Of a DNA stretch of 64,000 nt, positions 19,422 through 61,925 are shown in pieces. Position numbers and translations under genes: made by a program. Position 1 is the first letter of the stretch; each line of letters opens with the position of its first letter. Location of the stretch: the NCBI GenBank assembly GCA_017403955.1, contig JAFRDH010000019.1, positions 62,001 to 126,000 on the forward strand, given 5' to 3'. This DNA is from Mogibacterium sp. (GTDB lineage: Bacteria > Bacillota > Clostridia > Peptostreptococcales > Anaerovoracaceae). A model generated the notes under the pieces. That model had not been told where the DNA came from and made no database searches. It saw only the letters and a program-made list of their open reading frames with translations.

Positions 19422-19685
19422 TTAGCCGAGAAGCTTGTCAGAGAACTTAGCCTTAACAACCTTCTTTGCAGGGATCTGCATCTCTTCGCCAGTCTGTGGG
19501 TTGCGGCCTGTTCTTGCAGCCTGCTCCTTGACCTCTACCTTGAGAACGCCAGGAATAACTACCTTATCGCCAGCCTTAACAGCGTCAGCGATCACTTCGT
19601 GATAAGCGTCAACAGCAAGAGCTGCATCCTTCTTGGTGAAACCGGTCTTCTCTGCGAACTTTTCGATGAATTCTGCCTTTGTCAT
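19422..19685 (-). CDS. hup: DNA-binding protein HU
   Basis: 87-residue HU/IHF-family nucleoid protein. The N-terminal helices (TKAEFIEKFAEKTGFTKKDA) and the beta-arm signature GRNPQTGEEMQIPAKK are diagnostic. It binds DNA without strong sequence preference, bends it and compacts the chromosome as a homodimer. GGAGAAG precedes the ATG and a terminator follows, so it is a single-gene unit. Confidence 0.96.
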   Translation of the reverse strand: MTKAEFIEKFAEKTGFTKKDAALAVDAYHEVIADAVKAGDKVVIPGVLKVEVKEQAARTGRNPQTGEEMQIPAKKVVKAKFSDKLLG

Positions 19686-19823: not shown

Positions 19824-20225
19824 CTATTCAGCCAGGAGATCTTCGCCCGGTCCCATCATAGGAATATCGACTGCAACAGCGTCTTCAAGATGGAACATCA
19901 TCAGCTTGTGGCCGGTCTCTTCATTGTAGATGCCTTTGAGTTGCGGCATTGCTTCGAGACTTGCTTCGGCATACTTAGGTTCTGTCTCGAAAACAGCTTT
20001 GCCGGTGTAACGGAGCCAGTGGCCATCCGGCTTGGCACATGCGATCTCGACCTTCGGATTAGCAACAAGCTGTCTGTATACTTCTTTAAAGTCTCCTACT
20101 CCGAAAAGCACCTTTCCGTCCATTTCCATGTGTGCACCGAGCGGTCTGACTTTAGGCTGATCACCGTCTGCAGTTGCAAGATAGAATACGCCTGCTTCTG
20201 TAAGAAAATCATTTACTTTGCTCAT
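19824..20225 (-). CDS. pyridoxamine 5'-phosphate oxidase-like flavin-binding protein
   Basis: 133-residue split-barrel protein of the PNPOx-like superfamily. It has the short N-terminal helix, the GVFYLATADGDQPKVRPLG strand-loop pair (conserved RP for FMN phosphate) and the YRQLVANPKVEIACAKP segment seen in general-stress-type or uncharacterised PNPOx-like proteins. It begins 17 bases after the DUF1653 stop codon, so it is probably the last gene of the macro-RlaP-DUF1653 operon. A role in RNA repair is not known for this family; it may simply ride along. Confidence 0.85.
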   Translation of the reverse strand: MSKVNDFLTEAGVFYLATADGDQPKVRPLGAHMEMDGKVLFGVGDFKEVYRQLVANPKVEIACAKPDGHWLRYTGKAVFETEPKYAEASLEAMPQLKGIYNEETGHKLMMFHLEDAVAVDIPMMGPGEDLLAE

Positions 20226-20242
20226 TTCTCTCCTCCTTGATT

Positions 20243-20548
20243 TTAATAAGCTTTATGAATAACACTGTCGGGATGGTCCATTACCTTCTCGAAACGGTAT
20301 TTCTGACGTATCCCGGGATATTTATCATGGTCCACTTCGCTAAGGAACATTTCGAGCGGACGCACGAACAGACCGCCATCATCATAAAGTGGTCTGTATA
20401 CCATCATAGGTTCTCTTGTCTCAGTGTGAGTAGCGACTCCTACTATCTCGTAAAGATACTTCTTAGTCTTGCGCTCCTCATCAGACAGAAGTTCGCGCTT
20501 GAAATGCTGAACTGTGTCTCCCGGTTTGAATCTGATATCAGTATTCAT
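20243..20548 (-). CDS. DUF1653 protein
   Basis: 101-residue protein with a DUF1653 domain: FKPGDTVQHFKRE, YLYEIVGVATHTETREPMMVY and FVRPLEMFLSEV follow the family pattern of a small beta barrel with a conserved YxPL/RPLxMF core. Biochemical function is unknown. Its ATG overlaps the stop of the RlaP-type nucleotidyltransferase by 4 bases, so the two are translationally coupled. That suggests a working link to the nucleotidyltransferase. Confidence 0.85.
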   Translation of the reverse strand: MNTDIRFKPGDTVQHFKRELLSDEERKTKKYLYEIVGVATHTETREPMMVYRPLYDDGGLFVRPLEMFLSEVDHDKYPGIRQKYRFEKVMDHPDSVIHKAY

Positions 20549-21309
20549 AGTACTACACTCCTGAAGAATTCTTCCAGCTTTGCCTTATCGTTATAACGGG
20601 TCTCTGCCTTATCTGCCCATTCTTTGATAGATTCCAGCTGCTCATTGATAAAACTGTCCAGTTCAGGTATTCTCGCACCGCTCCCGAACTCGGGTGTGTT
20701 CTTCTTGATATCTATCAGTTCTTCCACTATCGGGCGCAAAATCTCAGGCAGCTCAGCTTTGACAAGGTCATCAAACAACATCGGAGCAGCTGTGCCATAA
20801 TCGACCACCCATTTCGCTGCCAGCAGAGGTCTCAAAACATAGAAATATTTCTTGAGACGGACCTCATCTGAAGACAAATACTTCTTCGCATTACTATGTG
20901 CCATGCTGAAATAGTGATACAAAGCCCGCTTTGGCAGGAAGCATTCCTTCGCAAGCTCCCTGAGCGGATCCGCCAGTTCACTTTCTCTGTAGATGATCGG
21001 CGAACTGCACCACTCCTGCAGAGCAGGGTTTGAATCATACATAAGTCTCAGCGCTTTCTGAAGATCCCACCCCGATACATCATAGACCTCATCGAGCTGC
21101 CACTCAATTACATCTCTCGCAGGATAAAGACTGAGATACTCAGGTAGCTTTCTGACATAAATAAAACGCACGTCATAATCACTGTCAGGCGAAGCAAAGC
21201 CCCATGCCCTGCTTCCCGATTCCACAGCCATAATGATCTTCACATTTTCTTTGTATTCTATCTCATCAAGCTTGTTTCTGATCTGTGCAACAATATCGAT
21301 GTGCTCCAT
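20545..21309 (-). CDS. RlaP-type nucleotidyltransferase (DNA polymerase beta superfamily)
   Basis: 254-residue nucleotidyltransferase matching the RlaP family (RNA repair pathway DNA polymerase beta family, PF10127). The catalytic block is SGSRAWG (residues 31-37) followed by SDYDVR with the metal-binding Asp pair at 44 and 46. The WQLDEVYDVSGWDLQKALRL region holds the third acidic residue (cited here as VSGWDLQKAL), and a helical C-terminal half follows. In published comparative genomics RlaP genes sit beside RNA ligases and are thought to add nucleotides to damaged RNA ends. Here it is coupled to DUF1653, preceded 31 bases upstream by a macro-domain gene, and lies in the same block as two rtcB genes. 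Confidence 0.88.
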   Translation of the reverse strand: MEHIDIVAQIRNKLDEIEYKENVKIIMAVESGSRAWGFASPDSDYDVRFIYVRKLPEYLSLYPARDVIEWQLDEVYDVSGWDLQKALRLMYDSNPALQEWCSSPIIYRESELADPLRELAKECFLPKRALYHYFSMAHSNAKKYLSSDEVRLKKYFYVLRPLLAAKWVVDYGTAAPMLFDDLVKAELPEILRPIVEELIDIKKNTPEFGSGARIPELDSFINEQLESIKEWADKAETRYNDKAKLEEFFRSVVL

Positions 21310-21340
21310 GCTATTTACCTTTCCGTACCTGATAGAAATC

Positions 21341-21859
21341 TTATTCGTATCTGGCGAGAACGCTCTTGCCGAGATTCAGCATGCCCTCGTTTAGTACTGT
21401 GAAAACAATATCCATTTCATACTCAGGATTATCTTCGATCCATTCATGACATGAACTTAATGCCTGCACCCAGGCTTTATCCTTCGGATATCCGAATATG
21501 CCGCTTGAAATAAGCGGAAATGCTATTGAATGACAGCCGGCTTCTTTCGCTTTGTTAAGAGAAGACTGATAGCAACTGTACAGAAGTTCCGGCTCATCTT
21601 CACCGCCGCCAGCCCATACAGGTCCGACAGCGTGGATCACATATTTTGCCTTGAGTTTAAACCCCGGAGTGATGACTGCACTTCCTGTCGGGCATGAACC
21701 GATCTTGTCGCAGGCATCCTGAAGTTCTCTTTCGCCTGCTGCTCTGAAGATAGCGCCGCATACTCCGCTTCCCATCATAAGATGCCTGTTGGCTGCATTT
21801 ACGATGCAGTCAGTATCCATATTTATAATATCCGCAATAATTATTCTGACAGAACTCAT
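21341..21859 (-). CDS. macro-domain protein
   Basis: 172-residue single macro domain. It shows DCIVNAANRHLMMGSGVCG, the GSAVITPGFKL strand, HAVGPVW and the ISSGIFGYP phosphate loop, so it should bind ADP-ribose or a terminal ribose phosphate such as 2'-phosphate or cyclic phosphate products. Macro domains recur in RNA-repair gene sets, where they may process 1''-phosphate ADP-ribose made by 2'-phosphotransferase or act on RNA ends. GGGAGG precedes the ATG. It is the first gene of macro-RlaP-DUF1653-PNPOx, with a likely -10 (TATAAT at 21903-21908) of its own. Confidence 0.92.
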   Translation of the reverse strand: MSSVRIIIADIINMDTDCIVNAANRHLMMGSGVCGAIFRAAGERELQDACDKIGSCPTGSAVITPGFKLKAKYVIHAVGPVWAGGGEDEPELLYSCYQSSLNKAKEAGCHSIAFPLISSGIFGYPKDKAWVQALSSCHEWIEDNPEYEMDIVFTVLNEGMLNLGKSVLARYE

Positions 21860-21942
21860 TCCTTACCTCCCGCAGATCATCTGCTTAACTATTTCTGTAC
21901 CAATTATAATAGTTCTGACCCCCGGAAGGAACCCTTTTCAGA

Positions 21943-22033
21943 GAAGGTATTTCAGCCGGTCCCGGGATCTGACGTTAAAAGACCGGCCCGGATAATAGGC
22001 TGATCCGGGTCCGGCCTTTGAGAAATACCTTAT
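21943..22033 (-). ncRNA. strongly folded intergenic element, candidate terminator or Y-RNA-like transcript
   Basis: Between rtcB1 and the macro gene the minus strand has an outer 10-bp stem AAGGTATTTC/GAAATACCTT enclosing two GC-rich hairpin options. Option A is GGCCGG-CCCGGAT with ATCCGGG-CCGGTC (22017-21981), followed by TTTTAA, which would act as a terminator for rtcB1. Option B pairs GCCGGACCCGGATC with GATCCCGGGACCGGC and spans the terminator. Alternative folds of this kind suggest attenuation. The end-paired, about 90-base shape is also reminiscent of Y RNAs that accompany Ro60-type proteins, but that is inference only. Confidence 0.45.
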
Positions 22034-22053
22034 TTGTTTCTTTCATTACTGAT

Positions 22054-23253
22054 CTAGTTCGCCTTGTAGTTGAAGACCGGCTTGAGGACTTCGATAACAT
22101 CTACTGATTCTTCGATGACATCAATGATATCCTCAAGTGACTTATATGCCATAGGCGCTTCATCGAGAGTCGAAGTGTTGACAGAAGTAGTGTAGATCCC
22201 TTCCATCGCCTTCTTGTATTCTTCCAGATCGATAGAATCCTTAGCCTTTGTTCTTGACATGATCCTTCCGGCTCCGTGAGGCGCTGAATAGTTCCATTCA
22301 GGGTTCCCCTTACCGACAGCGAGGACAGAACCATCTCTCATGTTGATAGGGATGAGGACCATCTCTCCGGCATGAGCTGAGATAGCACCCTTTCTGAGGA
22401 TCATCTCACCGGTATCGATATAGTTGTGGATAGTATGGAACGCGTCAAGCGCAGTAAGTCCGGCATGTCTGAGAATGACTTCGGCCATCTTCTCTCTGCT
22501 GATTCTCGCGAATTCCTGGCAGATCTCAACATCGTGCAAATAGTCTTCAAGATCCTGACCTTCGAGGTAGCACAGGTCATCAGGCAGATCGGCATTGATC
22601 TTCTCGGCCTTGAGTTCCTGCAAAGCAGCAGAGATCTCTTTCTCTCTTCCTGCTTCCTTGTACTCCTTAATGATCTGCATACGCTTAGCGAGATACTGTT
22701 CCTTACCCTCGTTCTTTTCGATAGCGAGCTTCTGGTAATAATCTGCTACCTGCTTACCGAGGTTTCTTGAACCCGAATGGATCACAAGATACTTAGTTCC
22801 GTCAGATGCCACATCGATTTCGATAAAATGGTTACCTCCGCCGAGTGTACCGAGTGACATATTAAGTCTCTCAGGATTGACCAGCATCTTGTAGCATCTC
22901 AGTCTTGTCAGATCGAAAGGCCACATGACCTTATCCCAAGTATTGCAATCCGACGGGATAATGTGACATGCCTCATCGATCTTTGCAAAATCGATATCTA
23001 CTTTACCGAGCTTAACAGTATACATACCGCATCCGATATCCACCCCGACTACGTTAGGCACAGCCTTATCTACGATAGTCATTGTAGTACCGATCGTACA
23101 GCCCTTTCCTGCATGCACATCCGGCATGATCCTGATCTTGCAGCCTCTTGTCATCTCTGTATCGCACATTCTTCTGATCTGTGCGATAGCTTCATCTTCA
23201 ATTACTTTAGCAAAGCACAGAGCAGTAGCGATCTTTCCTTCGATAATCAACAT
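22054..23253 (-). CDS. rtcB: RtcB family RNA ligase (paralogue 1)
   Basis: 399-residue RtcB, the GTP- and Mn2+-dependent ligase that joins 2',3'-cyclic phosphate or 3'-phosphate RNA ends to 5'-OH ends. Metal ligands are visible in VGVDIGCGM (Asp72, Cys75), GGGNHFIEI and HSGSRNLGK, and the guanylylated His is in APHGAGRIMSR. An in-frame extension of 30 codons upstream lacks support; GGAGG before the ATG at 23253 and alignment to paralogue 2 set this start. It carries a charged 35-residue segment after QKLAIEKNEGK that paralogue 2 lacks. It lies 70 bases after the DUF2828 gene, a Ro60-like partner. Confidence 0.95.
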   Translation of the reverse strand: MLIIEGKIATALCFAKVIEDEAIAQIRRMCDTEMTRGCKIRIMPDVHAGKGCTIGTTMTIVDKAVPNVVGVDIGCGMYTVKLGKVDIDFAKIDEACHIIPSDCNTWDKVMWPFDLTRLRCYKMLVNPERLNMSLGTLGGGNHFIEIDVASDGTKYLVIHSGSRNLGKQVADYYQKLAIEKNEGKEQYLAKRMQIIKEYKEAGREKEISAALQELKAEKINADLPDDLCYLEGQDLEDYLHDVEICQEFARISREKMAEVILRHAGLTALDAFHTIHNYIDTGEMILRKGAISAHAGEMVLIPINMRDGSVLAVGKGNPEWNYSAPHGAGRIMSRTKAKDSIDLEEYKKAMEGIYTTSVNTSTLDEAPMAYKSLEDIIDVIEESVDVIEVLKPVFNYKAN

Positions 23254-23323
23254 TTCTGCCTTGTCCTCCATTAATACTTTTTTTGAATTATATTCTAATC
23301 GTTTTATTCTGTCATCAGGCATC

Positions 23324-24802
23324 TTATGCCGTGATCTTCGCATAACGCTCGCTTCCTGCGATCTGCATCATGACTTTGTAAGGGTCGATATCTCCGCTTG
23401 CAACCATCGAGAACAGTCTTGGAGTACATCCGCTTACAAGGGCAACCCCCTGTTCGTTCATAGTCACAGGCTGCTGTCTGTTACGGCTCTGGACGTTCCA
23501 GAATACGACATCAGGCAGCTTGTAGCCATAAGCAGCGTAACGTCTCTTTGCGTTCTCAAAGATCGTAAGGCTTGCGTTCCTTACACATGAGTCAAACTCC
23601 ATATCAGAGATGATGTACAGAGTTGAAGGGAGTTCTTCCTGAGGGATGTGGTGTGTTGCCGCAGCGATCAGGATGAGATCGAACACCGACTCAAGATTTG
23701 TGTTCGCGACCTTGTTTAATGAAGCGACATATCTGAGCTTCTCGACGAAAGTCTTACCCTTGATCTCGATGAGCTGTGCATCTTCCGAAAACTCAATGAA
23801 GTAGTTGTGGAAGATCCCCTTGTTCCTCTCAGCGAAGTATAATCCGAGTGAAAGTGCGACACTTGCAGGAGTTGGTCTGCCGCTCCAGTACATAGATCCT
23901 GATGTATCCACTACAGCGATCGCATTTTCGTTTCCGCCGAAATCAGGGAATGAATCCCATGTTGCATTAAGGACCGACACCTCTTCCGCACTGATTCTTA
24001 TTGCATTTCCTCTTCCATATCTGCTGAGGAAGGCGTCAACAAGCTCATAAGGCATGAGTGTGTCTGCATGCAGCTTAGTCTCACCTCTTGAAACGCTTCT
24101 GATAAAGTCCATATAACGACTTTTGTCATTTCTGATGAACGCTGCACGGTACTTGAACATAGCCTTGGATGGCTGCTTCGAGTAGTCAAAAGTGTAGTCG
24201 CTCTCTCTGAGGTTATTCTCAATGATCCTGATCCTCGCTCTGAGTGCTGTGAGCACCTTACGGTATTCTCTGTCACTCATTTTAAGGCTGCGAGCGATCT
24301 TCTTCGCCGTAGCAACTGTTTCGGCATTGCTTGCGTTGACAGATGGGAGCCACTTAGCGAGAAGAGAAACATTTTCTCCGGTTTCGAGAGCTTTTCTGTC
24401 TGCTTCAAGCTGCTTTGCGATAAATGAAAGCATTTCCTTTTCGCATGGTGTTCCCATAAGTGAAAGCAAGTCGTCGAATCTTCCGTATTCGCCGAAGAAT
24501 TCGATATTCTTCTTCACGGAAGCAGGTTCATGAGTCGCAAGATATGTCATGACGATCCTGAACACTCTGCGTTCACCAAGGCCTCCGCGGATATCTCTGG
24601 CGTAGAAGATGATCTTCATGGCGAGATCCGGGTCCTCAGTGTACGCGCGGATGAATCTGTCAGTGATTTCCTGCTCAGGTGCATTTCTGATTGCACCGAC
24701 TGTTGCGAATAAGTCAAGACAATCTGAATGTGTGCTGACATGAGTCACAGCACCGTTTTCAGTAAATGTCCTGTTCGCCATTCTCTTGAGTGCATTTAAC
24801 AT
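23324..24802 (-). CDS. DUF2828 (Ro60/TROVE-like) VWA protein
   Basis: 492-residue protein of the DUF2828 pattern: an N-terminal TENGAVTHVSTHSDCLDLF block and RDIRGGLGERRVFRIV, a HEAT-like helical domain, then a VWA-type domain with MIDAS VVDTSGSM and the conserved ALxLGLYFAERNKGIFHNYF stretch. The layout (helical ring plus VWA) is that of Ro60/TROVE proteins, which hold misfolded or broken RNA and Y RNAs. A longer form starts at 24850 but has no ribosome binding site, whereas AAGGAAG precedes 24802. It is directly upstream of rtcB1, the same association seen for rsr with rtcB in other bacteria. Confidence 0.82.
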   Translation of the reverse strand: MLNALKRMANRTFTENGAVTHVSTHSDCLDLFATVGAIRNAPEQEITDRFIRAYTEDPDLAMKIIFYARDIRGGLGERRVFRIVMTYLATHEPASVKKNIEFFGEYGRFDDLLSLMGTPCEKEMLSFIAKQLEADRKALETGENVSLLAKWLPSVNASNAETVATAKKIARSLKMSDREYRKVLTALRARIRIIENNLRESDYTFDYSKQPSKAMFKYRAAFIRNDKSRYMDFIRSVSRGETKLHADTLMPYELVDAFLSRYGRGNAIRISAEEVSVLNATWDSFPDFGGNENAIAVVDTSGSMYWSGRPTPASVALSLGLYFAERNKGIFHNYFIEFSEDAQLIEIKGKTFVEKLRYVASLNKVANTNLESVFDLILIAAATHHIPQEELPSTLYIISDMEFDSCVRNASLTIFENAKRRYAAYGYKLPDVVFWNVQSRNRQQPVTMNEQGVALVSGCTPRLFSMVASGDIDPYKVMMQIAGSERYAKITA

Positions 24803-24868
24803 TGTTGTTTTTTCTTCCTTTCCAAGATGCTTTTTAAGTAAATCTACCATTGTTCTACTTATGATCAG

Positions 24869-24997
24869 TTATTGCTGTGAGCATCTTTCTGTTTTTTCAA
24901 AGCGCTTTATGGTGTTGGTTCTATGATTAGGAGTCATATCCAGTGAAATGTATTGCTGTAAGCGCTTTTCGTCAGATTCTTCAGGCTTATTATTCAT
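24869..24997 (-). CDS. 42-residue small ORF upstream of the DUF2828 gene
   Basis: An ATG at 24997 opens a 42-codon frame ending TAA at 24869, 66 bases before the DUF2828 start. The product would be hydrophilic and charged (MNNKPEESDEKRL at the start, RFEKTERCSQQ at the end). GAAGGCGG lies just before the ATG, close for a ribosome binding site. Two internal segments, AAGCGCTT with CAGCAATA, are repeated in the DNA. It may be a genuine small protein, a leader peptide or chance; nothing in it is recognised. Confidence 0.35.
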   Translation of the reverse strand: MNNKPEESDEKRLQQYISLDMTPNHRTNTIKRFEKTERCSQQ

Positions 24998-25063
24998 CCG
25001 CCTTCGAACCAGTATTAAAATTTTACTCGTTCATATCATTGTTCCCCCGGAGGGGGGAGAAAC

Positions 25064-25357
25064 TCAGATCACATGCTCAAATCCCATAATGGCATCGCAC
25101 TGAGTGCCGCTTTCTACAACGATGATCTCGTCGATGGTCACTCCGAGTACAGCTGCAAGGATGACAAGGTTGTCGATCGTTGGCAAGCTGTCGCCGTTCT
25201 GCCACTTGTAGATAGCCTGAGGGTTTGTGAATCCGAGGATCGTCTGGAGTTCTCTTACCGAGACCCCTGCAGACTGTCTGAGTCTCTTGATGTTCTGTCC
25301 TGTTGCTCTTGTGTCGATGATCGGTACTTTTGCCATCATGACCAATGTAACACTCAT
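25064..25357 (-). CDS. XRE family helix-turn-helix regulator
   Basis: 97-residue Cro/CI-type DNA-binding protein. The HTH runs from about residue 20 to 75: GQNIKRLRQSAGVSVRELQ, then the recognition helix region FTNPQAIYKWQNGDSLPT and the LAAVLGVTIDEII helix. AAGGAAGG precedes the ATG. It is placed between rtcB2 and the DUF2828-rtcB1 pair on the same strand, so it is the natural candidate for control of the RNA-repair genes, perhaps including its own promoter at 25643-25672. The short C-terminus has no ligand-binding domain. Confidence 0.88.
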   Translation of the reverse strand: MSVTLVMMAKVPIIDTRATGQNIKRLRQSAGVSVRELQTILGFTNPQAIYKWQNGDSLPTIDNLVILAAVLGVTIDEIIVVESGTQCDAIMGFEHVI

Positions 25358-25410
25358 TGCAATGTCCTTCCTTTCCGGCCGCCTGGCGGCCTGATTTTTT
25401 ATTTCCCATG

Positions 25411-25442
25411 AAAAAACCGCTTATCTACTTGAGACAAGCGGT
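25411..25442 (-). terminator. intrinsic terminator between the 41-residue ORF and the XRE gene
   Basis: On the minus strand ACCGCTTGTCT-CAAGT-AGATAAGCGGT forms an 11-bp stem with a 5-base loop followed by TTTTTTC. It lies in the leader of the XRE gene, so transcripts from the promoter at 25643-25672 must read through it to reach XRE and the downstream repair genes. Confidence 0.85.
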
Positions 25443-25469
25443 CTATGGAATCTGTAATATACACGGCAT

Positions 25470-25595
25470 CTAACTCACATGCCGCACATCCGTTTCTCTT
25501 GTCTCATTTTTACACACAAAGCAAAGTCCCAGACCTTTTATCTGGAATCTTGTATCCTTATTGATCAGTTCAGGTATGTAGTGTGTATATAACAT
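25470..25595 (-). CDS. 41-residue small ORF in the leader of the XRE gene
   Basis: ATG at 25595 to TAG at 25470, preceded by AGGAGAGG 10 bases upstream and by a good promoter. The product would begin MLYTHYIPELINKD and contain a Cys pair in GLCFVCKNETR. The stop codon is 28 bases before a strong intrinsic terminator. The layout fits either a small protein or a leader peptide whose translation affects termination. No homologue is recognised. Confidence 0.5.
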   Translation of the reverse strand: MLYTHYIPELINKDTRFQIKGLGLCFVCKNETRETDVRHVS

Positions 25596-25642
25596 TTGTG
25601 AGTTTTCCTCTCCTGTATTATTGATTTTGCCAAAGTGAATAT

Positions 25643-25672
25643 ATCATATGTGGCATCACCGTGTAAATTCAA
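25643..25672 (-). promoter_or_regulatory. promoter between rtcB2 and the small ORF/XRE unit
   Basis: Minus strand TTGAAT (25667-25672), an 18-base spacer and TATGAT (25643-25648). It would drive the 41-residue ORF and, by read-through of the terminator at 25411-25442, the XRE-DUF2828-rtcB1 genes. Confidence 0.65.
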
Positions 25673-25683
25673 TTTGTGGTTTA

Positions 25684-25713
25684 ATGGCAGGCCGGGCCGG
25701 GATCCCGTCCGGC
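25684..25713 (-). terminator. GC-rich hairpin after rtcB2
   Basis: Directly after the rtcB2 stop codon the minus strand has AGGCCGG and CCGGCCT arms with an inner CGGGATCCCG palindrome. No U-tract follows, so it may protect the 3' end or pause polymerase more than terminate. Confidence 0.5.
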
Positions 25714-26811
25714 CTAGCTTGCCTTGAAGTTAAATATCGGTTTAAGCACTTCTATTATCTCTACCGACTCCTCAACGACATCGATAATATCTTCGAGTGA
25801 CTTATAAGCCATCGGTGATTCGTCAATAGTAGAAGTTTTGATCGATGTGGTATATATACCTTCCATCGCCTTTTTGTAGTCCTCAAGGTCGATCAGTTCC
25901 TTGGCTTCAGATCTTGACATGATCCTCCCTGCGCCGTGCGGTGCAGAATAATTCCATTCAGGGTTGCCCTTGCCCGTTGCCAGAATAGAACCATCTCTCA
26001 TATTGATCGGGATCAGGACCAGTTCGCCCTCATGTGCTGCAATAGCTCCCTTCCTGAGAATCATTTCATCAGTGTCGATGTAATTGTGGACAGTGTGGAA
26101 TGCATCCTGTGCCTCAAGACCGGTATGCCCGAGGATCACCTCAGCCATCTTTTCTCTGCTCAACCTTGCAAACTGCTGGCAAATAGCTACATCATGCAGG
26201 TAGTCATCCAAATGTGAGCCCCAGAGGTAACTGAGGTCATCAGGTATGCGTACCTCTTCATTGTTCCTGTTGAGCTCTATAGCAAGGTTCTGATAATGTT
26301 CAGCGACCTGCTTGCCGAGAGTTCTTGAACCGGAGTGAATCACCAGATATTTAGTGCCGTCTTCTGCCTCATCGATCTCGATGAAATGGTTTCCTCCGCC
26401 AAGAGTGCCAAGCGACAGCCCAAGCTTATTGATGTCTTTCAGTTCCTTGTAACACTTGAGATCAGAAAAATCGAACTGCCACATTACTTTGTTCCATACA
26501 CTGAATCCTGACGGGATGATATGGCAGGCTTCATCGACCTTCCCGAAGTCGATATCCACTTTGCCAAGTCTCACCGTGTACATTCCGCAGCCTATATCCG
26601 ACCCTACGACATTCGGCACTGCTTTGTCGAGAATAGTCATGGTCGTTCCGATCGTACAACCTTTACCAGCGTGAACGTCCGGCATGATCCTGATCCGGCT
26701 GCCTCTTGTCATTTCGGTATTGCACATCCTCATGATCTGCGAGATCGCCTCATTGTCGATCACTTTGGCGAAGCAGACAGCTGTATTTATTTTTCCTCTG
26801 ATCTCAAACAT
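25714..26811 (-). CDS. rtcB: RtcB family RNA ligase (paralogue 2)
   Basis: 365-residue RtcB close to paralogue 1 along its length. The same active-site elements are present: VGSDIGCGM, GGGNHFIEI, HSGSRTLGK and APHGAGRIMSR with the nucleotidylated His. It lacks the charged 35-residue segment of paralogue 1, the two reading directly from LAIELNRNNEE into RIPDDLSYL. GGAGG precedes the ATG at 26811; a longer frame to 26850 is not supported. It follows the GIY-YIG/Nudix gene by 74 bases and probably shares its transcript. Two ligases in one locus may reflect different substrates or a damage-resistant backup. Confidence 0.94.
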   Translation of the reverse strand: MFEIRGKINTAVCFAKVIDNEAISQIMRMCNTEMTRGSRIRIMPDVHAGKGCTIGTTMTILDKAVPNVVGSDIGCGMYTVRLGKVDIDFGKVDEACHIIPSGFSVWNKVMWQFDFSDLKCYKELKDINKLGLSLGTLGGGNHFIEIDEAEDGTKYLVIHSGSRTLGKQVAEHYQNLAIELNRNNEEVRIPDDLSYLWGSHLDDYLHDVAICQQFARLSREKMAEVILGHTGLEAQDAFHTVHNYIDTDEMILRKGAIAAHEGELVLIPINMRDGSILATGKGNPEWNYSAPHGAGRIMSRSEAKELIDLEDYKKAMEGIYTTSIKTSTIDESPMAYKSLEDIIDVVEESVEIIEVLKPIFNFKAS

Positions 26812-26885
26812 TTTTCTACACCTCCGTACATTAATTATCATAATCAACATACCGGTGCCGGGTCTGCTAAAATGAAAGGGGGGGC

Positions 26886-27653
26886 TTATTTGCCCCAGGT
26901 GCTCCTGCCGTTTCTGGCAAAGAAGAGGTATCCGAGCAGATCCTTCTGGTACGGAATAAATGTACCCTCATCGATCATAGCTTCTATCTCTTCCTTCGAA
27001 GCCCACTTTGCATCGGCAACTTCATCCTCCTGAAGGTGAAGCTCTGAGATCTCTACATCATGATCTACGGTATAGAAGTCATCAAATCCGTCAGAGAAAT
27101 TGATCGTTATAACAGGCCTGAGCTCACTGAAGTCGATCTTTACGCCTAGTTCTTCGGCAGTCTCACGCTCAGCAGCCTGCCGGCTGTTATCTCCCGCGCT
27201 TGCTCCGCCGCCTACACTTACATCCCACAGCCCCGGCCAGCGGACTATATCATCTGCCCTTTTCTGTATAAGCATCTCATCCTTGCTGTTGAAAATACAG
27301 ACATGTATCACCATCCTGTATGTCCCCTCAGGTAAGTGCTCTCCTCGAAATGCAGTCCTGCCGGTCAGCTCTCTGTCCACAGTGTAAAGATCGATACGTT
27401 CCTTCATGCTCCCTATAAGCCTTTCCTTTTCTGCTCTTGTTAATTGTTTTATTGAGTATTCGCGGCGCTGGGCTTCTATCTTGTCATCGAAAGCCTCATG
27501 ATAAACCAGTTCGACAGGTCTTCTTGCCCTGGTATATTTGGCCCCCTGCCCAAGATTATGTGCCCTGACACGTTTGTCAAGGTCGGTAGTCCAACCCGTA
27601 TATAAAGTGCCATCCGCACACTTCAGAATATATACATAGTTCCTTCTGATCAT
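26886..27653 (-). CDS. GIY-YIG nuclease / Nudix hydrolase fusion
   Basis: 255-residue two-domain protein. Residues 1 to about 85 are a UPF0213/YhbQ-type GIY-YIG nuclease domain: [33 protein letters not shown] and the metal-binding Glu in [11 protein letters not shown]. Residues 110 to 250 are a Nudix domain like YfcD, with [13 protein letters not shown] and the Nudix core RETAEELG; the first acidic position of the box is Asp instead of Glu. Nudix enzymes cleave nucleoside diphosphates linked to another group. Placement between the hydrolase-ferritin gene (17 bases) and rtcB2 suggests trimming or decapping of RNA ends before ligation, which is inference. Confidence 0.9.
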
Positions 27654-27670
27654 TCTTTTTCCTGAGTGTT

Positions 27671-28732
27671 TTACTTGAGCAGACCAAGGACAGCATCGCC
27701 ATGATGGGTCTCATCATTCATTACTGCCTTCACTTCCGGGAAGTCTGCTATTATGCCTTTGTATTTTTCGGCAGCTTCATATTCGGCTTTGGCGATTATC
27801 GGATAAACCTTCTCTCTGCCGATCGTCCTGTAAAGCATCGGAACGAGAATGGATTTTGCCGGATTTGCTTTGATCGTAGCACCTGTATATTTGAAGAAAA
27901 CATCAGCATGCCTTGCTTCATCTCCCGCAAGCCTCTCGAACGCGGCTTTGTCCTTAGGATCTTTGACCACAGCAGCTAATTTCTCATACATGAGCACGGC
28001 ATCGATCTCACCCTGCTGAGCATTCTTCAGTATCTCCATCTGTGCGCTCGTGATGTTACCTTCAGCAGCAGGAGCTTTGACCCCGGCTTCTTCCATTATG
28101 ATATCTGCAAGCCGGCTTCCGTTGACAGCATAACTGATGTGCCCTTCACCCTCAAGTATCCTGAGTTTCGCTCCCGGTACCGCTTCTGCGATCGCACGGG
28201 TCTCCTCTTCTTTGATAATATCCTTGCTGCCGGCTATAACTACAGTCGGAGTCTTGATCGTTGCCAGCTCCTCAGCTGTAATATTCGGCTCCTTAAGCAT
28301 CATAAGCAGCTTAGGGTCTTTTGTGACTGTATGCATTACCTTGATGCCTCCTCTGAGCCAGGATGCTACAGCCTGCGGGGTCATGTTCGCACTACCTGCG
28401 AGCAACAGACCGATTCTGTCTGTTCTCATTGCAGTGAGAAGACCGATGATCGCACCATCACTGTGGCCGAAATATACCACATCTCTGAGGTCCAGCTGCT
28501 CCATAAAAGCGACCATATCATCCGCCATATCTGTATAATGAAGTTCATCTACTTTTGAACTGAGGCCGTGGCAGCGCGAGTCCACGTTGTATACGGTAAA
28601 GTTCCTTCTCAGCAGCCAGATCGAATTCTTGAACTCATTATGGTCTGCACCATTACCGTGTACCAGGATAAGAGGTCTCCCTACGCCGCACTTTTCATAG
28701 TACATGTCGATTCCGTTTACATTGATTCTCAT
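27671..28732 (-). CDS. alpha/beta hydrolase fused to a ferritin-like (rubrerythrin-type) domain
   Basis: 353-residue fusion. Residues 1 to about 215 are an alpha/beta hydrolase: oxyanion LVHGNGAD, nucleophile elbow GHSDG with Ser91, and late GEGHISYAV with the catalytic His. From about 225 a ferritin-like four-helix bundle follows: [31 protein letters not shown] and MNDETHHGD supply the E and ExxH ligands of a di-iron site. GGGGGAGC precedes the ATG, and a consensus promoter lies 80 bases upstream. It heads the three-gene unit with GIY-YIG/Nudix and rtcB2. A peroxide-scavenging or iron-protective role under oxidative stress would fit, but the substrate is unknown. Confidence 0.85.
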
Positions 28733-28838: not shown

Positions 28839-28894
28839 TTGAGCAGCGCGCACAGAAAATGCAGCTGAAGTTCATTGTAAATCTTGATGAGCCC

Positions 28895-28954
28895 CTCATG
28901 CCAAAGTTCAACTTCTCATGCCAAAGTTCAGCCTCTCATGCTAAACTTCAACTT
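28895..28954. repeat. three 20-bp tandem repeats
   Basis: Three head-to-tail 20-bp units (28895-28914, 28915-28934, 28935-28954). The first two differ at three positions, and the third carries two more changes. The consensus starts CTCATGCCAAAGTTCA. No ORF crosses them. They directly abut the inverted-repeat element that starts at 28954. Confidence 0.85.
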
Positions 28955-61695: not shown

Positions 61696-61741
61696 ACTCT
61701 TACCATTCTCCGCTCAAAATGTGCAGTTAATTGACTCATTG

Positions 61742-61890
61742 AAAAACCGGCGTGGCGGTCTGCAGTACGCAGAGGCTTATCTGCGGCACACAGAACGGGC
61801 CGCTTAATGCTGCTACCTCTCGGTCCTGACATGGTTCACGGTGTCCTGTTGCGCAGGGCCCCCGCGCACTGCAGGCCGCCCGCCGGCACT
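61742..61890 (-). ncRNA. ffs: signal recognition particle RNA
   Basis: Minus strand contains the SRP domain IV signature GTGAACCATGTCAGG, then ACCGAGAGGTAGCAGCA. The flanks pair into one long rod: CCGGCG with CGCCGG, GGCGG with CCGCC and CTGCAGT with ACTGCAG. The 3' end runs into TTTTT. About 149 bases, which is the short bacterial form without a full Alu domain as far as I can see. It binds Ffh to deliver nascent membrane proteins. It lies just upstream of dnaX, a common arrangement. Confidence 0.92.
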
Positions 61891-61896
61891 TGAACA

Positions 61897-61925
61897 ATTA
61901 TAGCACAACTCTTTGTCTGTCTCAA
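61897..61925 (-). promoter_or_regulatory. promoter of ffs
   Basis: Minus strand TTGAGA (61920-61925), exactly 17 bases, TATAAT (61897-61902); the predicted start is 7 bases downstream at the first base of the SRP rod. Confidence 0.88.

Follow-up and report, generated by a model that had tools for sequence, protein, structure and literature searches.

RtcB RNA ligases encoded with Ro60-like and RlaP partners are a recognised RNA repair theme, and in 2016 Burroughs and Aravind reportedly described sets of RlaP and RtcB with Ro-like partners as predicted RNA repair. Bacterial Y RNAs of the YrlA class, as Chen et al. are said to have set out in 2014, lie beside a Ro60-fold protein, have paired ends and in some cases carry a tRNA-like module, which at least one RNA per locus contains. 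The locus considered here occupies positions 19824..28732 of the window (the whole 64,000-nucleotide stretch that was analysed) in the genome of a bacterium near Mogibacterium, whose assembly is 2.2 Mb long and 95% complete. It differs from the RlaP/RtcB repair sets in adding two RNA elements and a leader, features that were absent from an earlier sequence-only reading of this DNA and that, we think, best indicate what the locus does. The locus is probably a tRNA-damage response module.

Among related systems, the Salmonella rsr-yrlBA-rtcBA operon, which is regulated by damaged tRNAs (PMC7790460), likewise encodes a Ro60-type protein, a tRNA-like small RNA and RtcB together. The present locus has a DUF2828 protein, not TROVE/Rsr at the family level; its elements combine a terminal stem with ACAGCAA and have no Rfam Y-RNA match; and it has a leader and an XRE-family regulator, not the RtcR activator, with both RtcA and RtcR absent among the ten proteins scanned for families. 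The elements resemble YrlA-class Y RNAs in adjoining a Ro60-fold gene, in pairing their ends and in the tRNA-like character of some copies; YrlA is reported in phages (PMC7765460), where Ro60-related proteins have also been noted (PMC7765460, PMC12714340). With the trp, his, bmrCD and mef/mel attenuators the locus shares a leader open reading frame (ORF) and alternative antiterminator and terminator structures, but the present leader peptides use 14-20 amino acids and their targets are RNA repair and tRNA genes. A literature search, conducted without most subscription papers and so without the main Y-RNA ones, found no named RNA partner of DUF2828, and among what were mostly titles and abstracts it found no leader attenuator controlling RtcB or tRNA arrays. 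The subscription literature may already contain a description of some of the small-RNA family.

The leader and the genes behind it

Read 5' to 3', genes for a hydrolase-rubrerythrin fusion, a GIY-YIG/Nudix protein and a first RtcB (RtcB-a) are followed by a promoter-like site, the leader ORF and a terminator; then come XRE, the two RNA elements, DUF2828 and a second RtcB (RtcB-b), and at the 3' end macro, RlaP, DUF1653 and PNPOx. With that promoter-like site and terminator separating RtcB-a from XRE, the genes do not obviously form a single operon. The features of the leader are these (MFE, minimum free energy):

25638-25667, minus strand: promoter-like site TTTACA-18-TATATT, the second hexamer preceded by TG (10/12 matches)
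25470-25595, minus strand: leader ORF of 41 codons, MLYTHYIPELINKDTRFQIKGLGLCFVCKNETRETDVRHVS
25498-25506, minus strand: region 2, TGAGACAAG, the proposed 5' arm of an antiterminator, inside the leader ORF
25464-25484, minus strand: hairpin CGGCAT...ATGCCG around the leader stop codon, from sequence and MFE fold, varied in relatives
25411-25442, minus strand: intrinsic terminator; region 3 (25438-25430), the complement of region 2, lies in its 5' arm

Eleven aligned leaders have the start codon and length class in common. Across them, 99.0% of cells are paired between regions 2 and 3, against 23-60% when slid, and 98.3% are paired in the terminator, with double changes in two pairs; a consensus promoter/terminator scan did not list the terminator at 25411-25442. 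Promoter-like sites of this kind number 27 in 10 kb against 17.3 in shuffles, so the site is weak alone, and an equivalent can be seen by eye in those relatives' stretches that reach far enough upstream. The pattern of codon differences is a moderate sign that the leader ORFs are translated: of the single-base codon differences in 102 overlapping pairs from 27 leaders, 36% are synonymous when read in frame, compared with 15% and 25% in the two shifted frames, and the codon-position counts across the leader ORFs (467, 556 and 669) give moderate coding support only. This leader ORF, with its proposed antiterminator and mutually exclusive terminator, is likely to be a ribosome-controlled attenuator. 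Cut or uncharged tRNAs would stall the ribosome in the leader before region 2, and free region 2 would then pair with region 3, so that the terminator fails and transcription runs on through XRE, the small RNAs, DUF2828 and RtcB.

One layout is common to the XRE/DUF2828 unit of the window and to the sister units. When 60 relatives were searched with a pattern made of regions 2 and 3, it marked 26 places in 13 genomes, each of these a member of the genus, and the reversed pattern marked 3 places. With one exception the leader was observed in the genus alone, the pattern search outside it covering 24 genomes; a cruder test (a diverse small ORF plus a terminator) found none at 27 DUF2828 loci outside it. 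In the viral_contigs set the pattern marks 32 stretches, and among these L233 alone combines a leader ORF with a terminator (L numbers name fetched stretches, G numbers genomes). A further small ORF (MQGFR.Y.D.IG...) stands between the leader terminator and XRE at L051:2283-2490 and L150:8050-8262.

What stands behind the leader in relatives? In sister species RtcB, XRE and as many as 28 divergent spare tRNAs, for all 20 amino acids, follow it, and in other genomes of the genus it heads tRNA operons without DUF2828. Eleven such stretches without DUF2828 were fetched, with tRNAs in nine and RtcB in eight; L200 and L202 have 28 tRNAs each for all 20 amino acids, and L203 has 28 for 19. In L048, L049 and L014 the island itself is interleaved with 26-28 tRNA genes. 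The cassette tRNAs look like a second set, not copies, because they are only 52-79% identical to the nearest ordinary isoacceptor (three genomes, fetched stretches only); an encoded CCA end is present in 216 of 219 cassette tRNAs and in 67 of 67 ordinary ones. The genome of the window has a separate array of seven tRNAs (L199).

Some of these cassettes carry further RNAs. ROOL RNA is found in the L048 and L049 islands, and inside bacterial spare-tRNA cassettes with XRE it lies at L200:8425-8982, L205:5215-5774, L048:7199-7773 and L049:11772-12346; RtcB is also present in the ROOL-bearing cassettes L200, L048 and L049. The pemK RNA (RF02913) occurs near spare-tRNA arrays or DUF2828 loci at L200:11674-11754, L202:6980-7060, L057:4089-4146 and L017:18130-18194.

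The ligases and the regulator of the window are these:

25714-26811, minus strand: RtcB-a RNA ligase, 365 aa, without a 34-residue insert
22054-23253, minus strand: RtcB-b RNA ligase, 399 aa (family match; PHROG 1075, tRNA splicing ligase)
25064-25357, minus strand: XRE-family regulator (PF01381, 1.7e-11), whose relatives in the genus sit between RtcB and tRNA arrays

These are the only two RtcB copies that an RtcB family search finds in the assembly, and 282 of the 399 positions in their alignment (71%) are identical. A script check finds the DxGCG, GGGNHF, IHSGSR, HNYID and PHGAGR motifs, which we take to be the conserved metal- and guanylate-binding motifs, in both copies. The likely start of RtcB-b is 23253, with the ORF-list start, 23343, lying upstream. 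Both copies and the RtcBs of sister species form one clade (14 rows, support 96/100), and the nearest tree rows to RtcB-a are RtcBs of leader-headed sister-species units, most with tRNAs. RtcB joins the 3'-phosphate or cyclic-phosphate ends left by metal-independent RNases (PMC7824862), and in the proposed module the two ligases would rejoin 2',3'-cyclic-phosphate and 5'-OH ends. If correct, the module would link phage-type tRNA islands, ROOL RNA and RtcB repair, and would bear on the purpose of ROOL and of spare tRNA arrays.

Could the locus instead be a piece of a phage tRNA island? Such pieces would be inherited from, or kept by, mobile elements against host anticodon nucleases, and here one would survive as a decaying remnant, not as a host stress system. 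ROOL is a prophage and phage RNA, often near tRNA islands (PMC12286853), and its presence in some sister tRNA arrays speaks for this origin. DUF2828 is present in 682 of 50,697 phage records and lies beside tRNAs in several of the fetched ones, with Listeria P100 also having it near a tRNA splicing ligase. The likeness to phage islands with ROOL and RtcB extends from the dense sister arrays to the DUF2828, RtcB and tRNAs of P100; it differs in that the sister arrays follow the leader and XRE and that the window has neither tRNA nor, by Rfam scan, ROOL. Decay would be in keeping with an element 2 that has no tRNA-like interior and a window that has no tRNA genes. However, both RtcBs, RlaP, DUF2828 and the leader read as intact. 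On balance we consider the remnant unlikely, though a serious contender, and retain the tRNA-damage response module.

Amino acid diversity of the leader peptides

Classical attenuator leaders repeat one amino acid. The present peptides were counted over 28-30 codons, as far as the cysteine-lysine that immediately precedes region 2, and 20 of 23 hold at least 17 different amino acids; three of them (L201, L208 and L209, in two dissimilar classes) hold all 20. Among control 30-residue windows from proteins of the same loci, 4,324 of 64,451 (6.7%) reach 17 and 0 reach 20. A composition model gives a probability of 1.3e-4 for all 20 amino acids, and the observed total over five classes of our own making was reached by 0 of 20,000 simulations; the leader peptides are related, so these are not 23 independent tests. 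Left out of the 23 were the divergent L016, L233 (18 amino acids), the second leader of L049 (18) and both of L202 (20 and 17), which are identical to those of L201 and L200.

The set of peptides suggests sensors of a shortage of almost any charged tRNA, and this pan-tRNA sensing fits the leaders' targets, RNA repair and tRNA genes. A more tentative extension, to which we would give somewhat less than even weight, is a pan-tRNA alarm, in which a leader of nearly all amino acids lets the ribosome test the whole charged-tRNA pool, and any shortage would switch on RtcB, the Ro60-like protein with phage-shared tRNA-mimic RNAs and, in sister species, the divergent spare tRNA set. Such a regulator would sense the loss of almost any tRNA, not of one amino acid.

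Broad amino acid use might also mean only that no single amino acid is sensed, the leader being an attenuator that responds to antibiotics or to translation inhibitors in general. Gram-positive drug responses do lie under leader-peptide attenuators (PMC4335068, PMC4191407), and for such a device a stall at any codon would suffice. Yet the genes behind these leaders are tRNAs, RtcB and XRE, not drug efflux genes or methylases, and peptides with all 20 amino acids arise in two dissimilar leader classes. An inhibitor-responsive leader seems to us rather improbable.

The DUF2828 protein and the nearby RNA elements

Downstream of XRE lie the putative protein and RNA partners (scores are those of the covariance model R1, described below):

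24898-24968, minus strand: Y-RNA-like element 1 (R1 51.7 bits, E 2.4e-9, a training sequence; fold z -2.4)
24823-24887, minus strand: Y-RNA-like element 2 (R1 46.3 bits, E 4.6e-8, a training sequence; fold z -2.6)
23324-24802, minus strand: DUF2828/DUF7788 protein, 492 aa, with a Ro60/TROVE-like predicted fold and a vWA domain (DTSGS)

By sequence the protein matches only DUF2828 and DUF7788 at E<=0.01, with no match to the TROVE family PF05731; its best phmmer match among PDB sequences has E 0.56, and the genome of the window (G000) has no TROVE protein at E<=0.001. Its structural model (pLDDT 82) gives ten Foldseek matches at E<=0.001, all ten Ro60/TROVE, with both the HEAT-repeat ring and the vWA domain aligned, and the Ro60-like guess of the sequence-only reading agrees with this predicted fold. 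The likely start is 24802, the ORF-list start at 24850 lying upstream, inside an RNA element. Named genome records found with this protein are two goat-gut Mogibacterium metagenome-assembled genomes (MAGs), an uncultured Clostridiales MAG and Faecalimonas umbilicata.

Element 1 has a 9-bp terminal stem, ACAGCAA and an inner hairpin, UAUGA-CUCCUAA-UCAUA, that resembles an anticodon arm; element 2 is without the tRNA-like interior found in relatives and overlaps the upstream ORF-list start of DUF2828. In relatives the gap before DUF2828 holds repeated units of the form AAGRYRC-NN-ACAGCAA ... GYRYCTTg. A stem-aware scan gave 70 candidates from 25 sources, against 2-7 per shuffle over ten shuffles, and 61 were retained. 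Thirty-eight shorter copies align end to end, with an 8-bp terminal stem that is 95.4% paired and shows two-sided changes in 6 of 8 pairs; the copies had been selected for pairing, and the fair tests are therefore independent loci, not the aligned stem. Model R1 gives 69 matches at E<=0.01 from 25 sources, all on the DUF2828 strand and mostly just upstream of the gene, with as many as six copies at one locus. A simple sequence pattern, AARRYRCNNACAGCAA, proved too loose (209 of 391 class genomes), and the covariance model was used instead.

In a fresh phylum-wide sample the DUF7788 half is present in 8 of 398 genomes, the window's own included. Eight additional loci, spread over seven genomes, came from this sample. 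Six of the loci (L151-L156, from four genera, three loci being from one genus) are R1-positive at E<=0.01, with matches at or just upstream of the DUF2828 5' end; R1 has no match in L157, a second, distant DUF2828 paralogue, or in L158, a broken DUF2828 pseudogene. Among 391 class genomes, 16 have R1 and 16 have DUF2828 above its cut-off (20 do at E<=0.001); 14 genomes have both, an overlap partly built in because DUF2828 loci had served to train R1. Both DUF2828 genomes that lack a genome-wide R1 match do match in locus searches (L061, L066), and of the two R1 genomes without DUF2828, one has its match on a 3.9 kb contig and the other near a contig end. Among 60 relatives, R1 and DUF2828 are each found in nine, eight of them shared; in G010 the genome-wide R1 match lies on a different contig from DUF2828, whose locus, L016, matches at E 0.0054. 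Twelve phage and two plasmid loci include six with R1 at E<=0.01 (16 matches, all on the DUF2828 strand): Bacillus phage FADO, Campylobacter phage PC14, Enterococcus phage VRE9_1, Staphylococcus phage PG-2021_14, a fecal phage contig and a Subdoligranulum plasmid.

How tRNA-like are these elements? A T-arm sequence is present in 20 of 61 copies (shuffled mean 0.36) and a 5+7 hairpin of anticodon-arm type, T-arms included, in 19 of 61 (shuffled mean 1.6). The Rfam tRNA model recognises some copies, and the MFE fold of L014:4854-4958 sets D-, anticodon- and T-arms on a terminal stem that replaces the acceptor stem (z only -1.6). At the window locus the tRNA-like module is at most the anticodon-arm-like hairpin, a T-arm being absent from both copies. 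Scans of the window and of 23 loci left every Rfam Y-RNA family below its cut-off, and the one match in the window at E<=5 lies outside both elements. R1, too, has no match at three short Clostridia TROVE loci or genome-wide in the same three genomes; the presumed partner here is DUF2828.

The elements do adjoin the gene of a Ro60-fold protein, and their ends pair into a terminal stem. The simplest reading, by analogy, is that they serve DUF2828 as Y RNAs serve Ro60, and the DUF2828 branch of the Ro60-fold proteins would then have a partner-RNA family. The protein would bind the terminal stem and ACAGCAA, with the RNAs gating or targeting it as Y RNAs do Ro60, and protein and tRNA-mimic RNAs may together sort, hold or decoy damaged tRNAs.

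The repeated elements might instead be cis-acting structures of the 5' untranslated region, serving DUF2828 autoregulation, or processing stems of tRNA transcripts. The placement of the 69 R1 matches, all on the strand of DUF2828 and most of them a short way ahead of the gene, is what a cis element would give. But a locus can hold six copies, the element lies up to about 2.8 kb upstream of DUF2828 in FADO and downstream of it in the Staphylococcus phage, and in L053 and L057 it precedes an RtcB-DUF2828 pair. The 11 leader stretches without DUF2828, nine of them with tRNAs, give no R1 match at E<=0.01 (one at 0.41). We regard either role as improbable and prefer separate, Y-like RNAs.

The elements have other neighbours as well. 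An 836-aa protein at L149:2-2512 (G022), by eye a polynucleotide kinase-phosphatase-ligase, is closely followed by four R1 elements at the end of a contig, possibly a second kind of RNA repair linked to the same small RNAs. At L130:2943-3210, on a 3.9 kb contig with no DUF2828, three R1 elements stand beside an ORF that by eye is HNH-endonuclease-like. In L017, L052-L054, L057, L059, L156 and L167 a conserved ORF end (..SFGP..VNLIK.RL..QKSCEL, WYL-like by eye) and a strong terminator precede the elements; the terminator upstream of the elements follows such a WYL-type-regulator-like ORF end in 8 of 9 printed stretches.

Several observations count against a tRNA-damage module with a pan-tRNA leader. 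All of its support is computed, from sequence and models, and the Ro60 fold match, though full-length, is loose (TM 0.42-0.54, rmsd about 5). Covariation in the antiterminator is thin: it amounts to one region 2/region 3 pair in two closely related leaders, where GAGAUAAG changes together with CUUAUCUC, and is equalled in 28 of 500 shuffles. In all 10 leaders folded, from GTGTG as far as the T tract, the MFE structure contains the terminator, and antitermination would thus have to be kinetic; nor, unlike in the trp design, does a ribosome at the leader stop codon obviously cover region 2, and with static folds preferring the terminator, timing must matter. The window leader, with 17 amino acids (P about 0.05), does not stand out, the other leader in its genome (L199:7877-8617, G000:C17), which heads the seven tRNAs, uses 14 (P 0.62), and the divergent L016 leader uses 15 (P 0.39). 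The window itself is without tRNA genes. Finally, 8 of the 14 phage and plasmid loci have no R1 match at E<=0.01: four are weak (E 0.07-0.37), one has E 2.9 and three have none.

Recurrence of the neighbourhood

Which of the other genes belong to the module? Those not yet listed are:

20545-21309, minus strand: RlaP, the RNA ligase-associated polymerase-beta nucleotidyltransferase (PF10127, 2.5e-83; near 4/24 DUF2828 loci)
21341-21859, minus strand: macro-domain protein, a possible end-processing partner (PF01661, 4.7e-44; near 3/24 DUF2828 loci)
26886-27653, minus strand: GIY-YIG and Nudix fusion (domain match), a neighbour with an unproven link
27671-28732, minus strand: alpha/beta hydrolase and rubrerythrin fusion
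20243-20548, minus strand: DUF1653
19824-20225, minus strand: PNPOx

The sequence-only reading had counted eleven or more minus-strand genes; all those it named are present, ten of them inside 19824..28732 and each where it had placed them, and an eleventh (19422-19685, HU-like by eye reading only) lies just outside. Its reading of two RtcB ligases, a Ro60-like protein, RlaP and a macro protein as a core of RNA repair is supported. RlaP, which is found with RNA ligases, is predicted to restore lost nucleotides (PMC7824862), and in the module it would tidy broken ends, perhaps with the macro protein.

Gene order was compared in 24 neighbourhoods fetched around DUF2828, of which one holds a DUF2828 fragment only and several are cut by contig ends. 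RtcB recurs in 14 of them, with RtcB-a as the query, an XRE relative in eight (one weak), RlaP in four, macro in three and a Nudix/GIY-YIG relative in three (one weak); Nudix/GIY-YIG relatives also share a stretch with RtcB in L048, L049, L206 and L207. PNPOx, DUF1653 and the hydrolase-rubrerythrin fusion are in none of the 24. The earlier proposal of a single eleven-gene, oxidative-stress-linked RNA maintenance system, drawn from a common strand and tight packing, is thus very improbable, given these three absences and the terminator and promoter-like site that divide the stretch; nothing was found to support its guarding against oxidative damage.

A PADLOC anti-phage defence search of the ten proteins left eight without a match and gave weak domain matches only for XRE and Nudix. 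Short tandem repeats (TTGAACTTTGGCATGAG...) at 28890-28950 of the window lie upstream of the hydrolase-rubrerythrin gene, and a bacterial large SRP RNA is found at 61739-61925.

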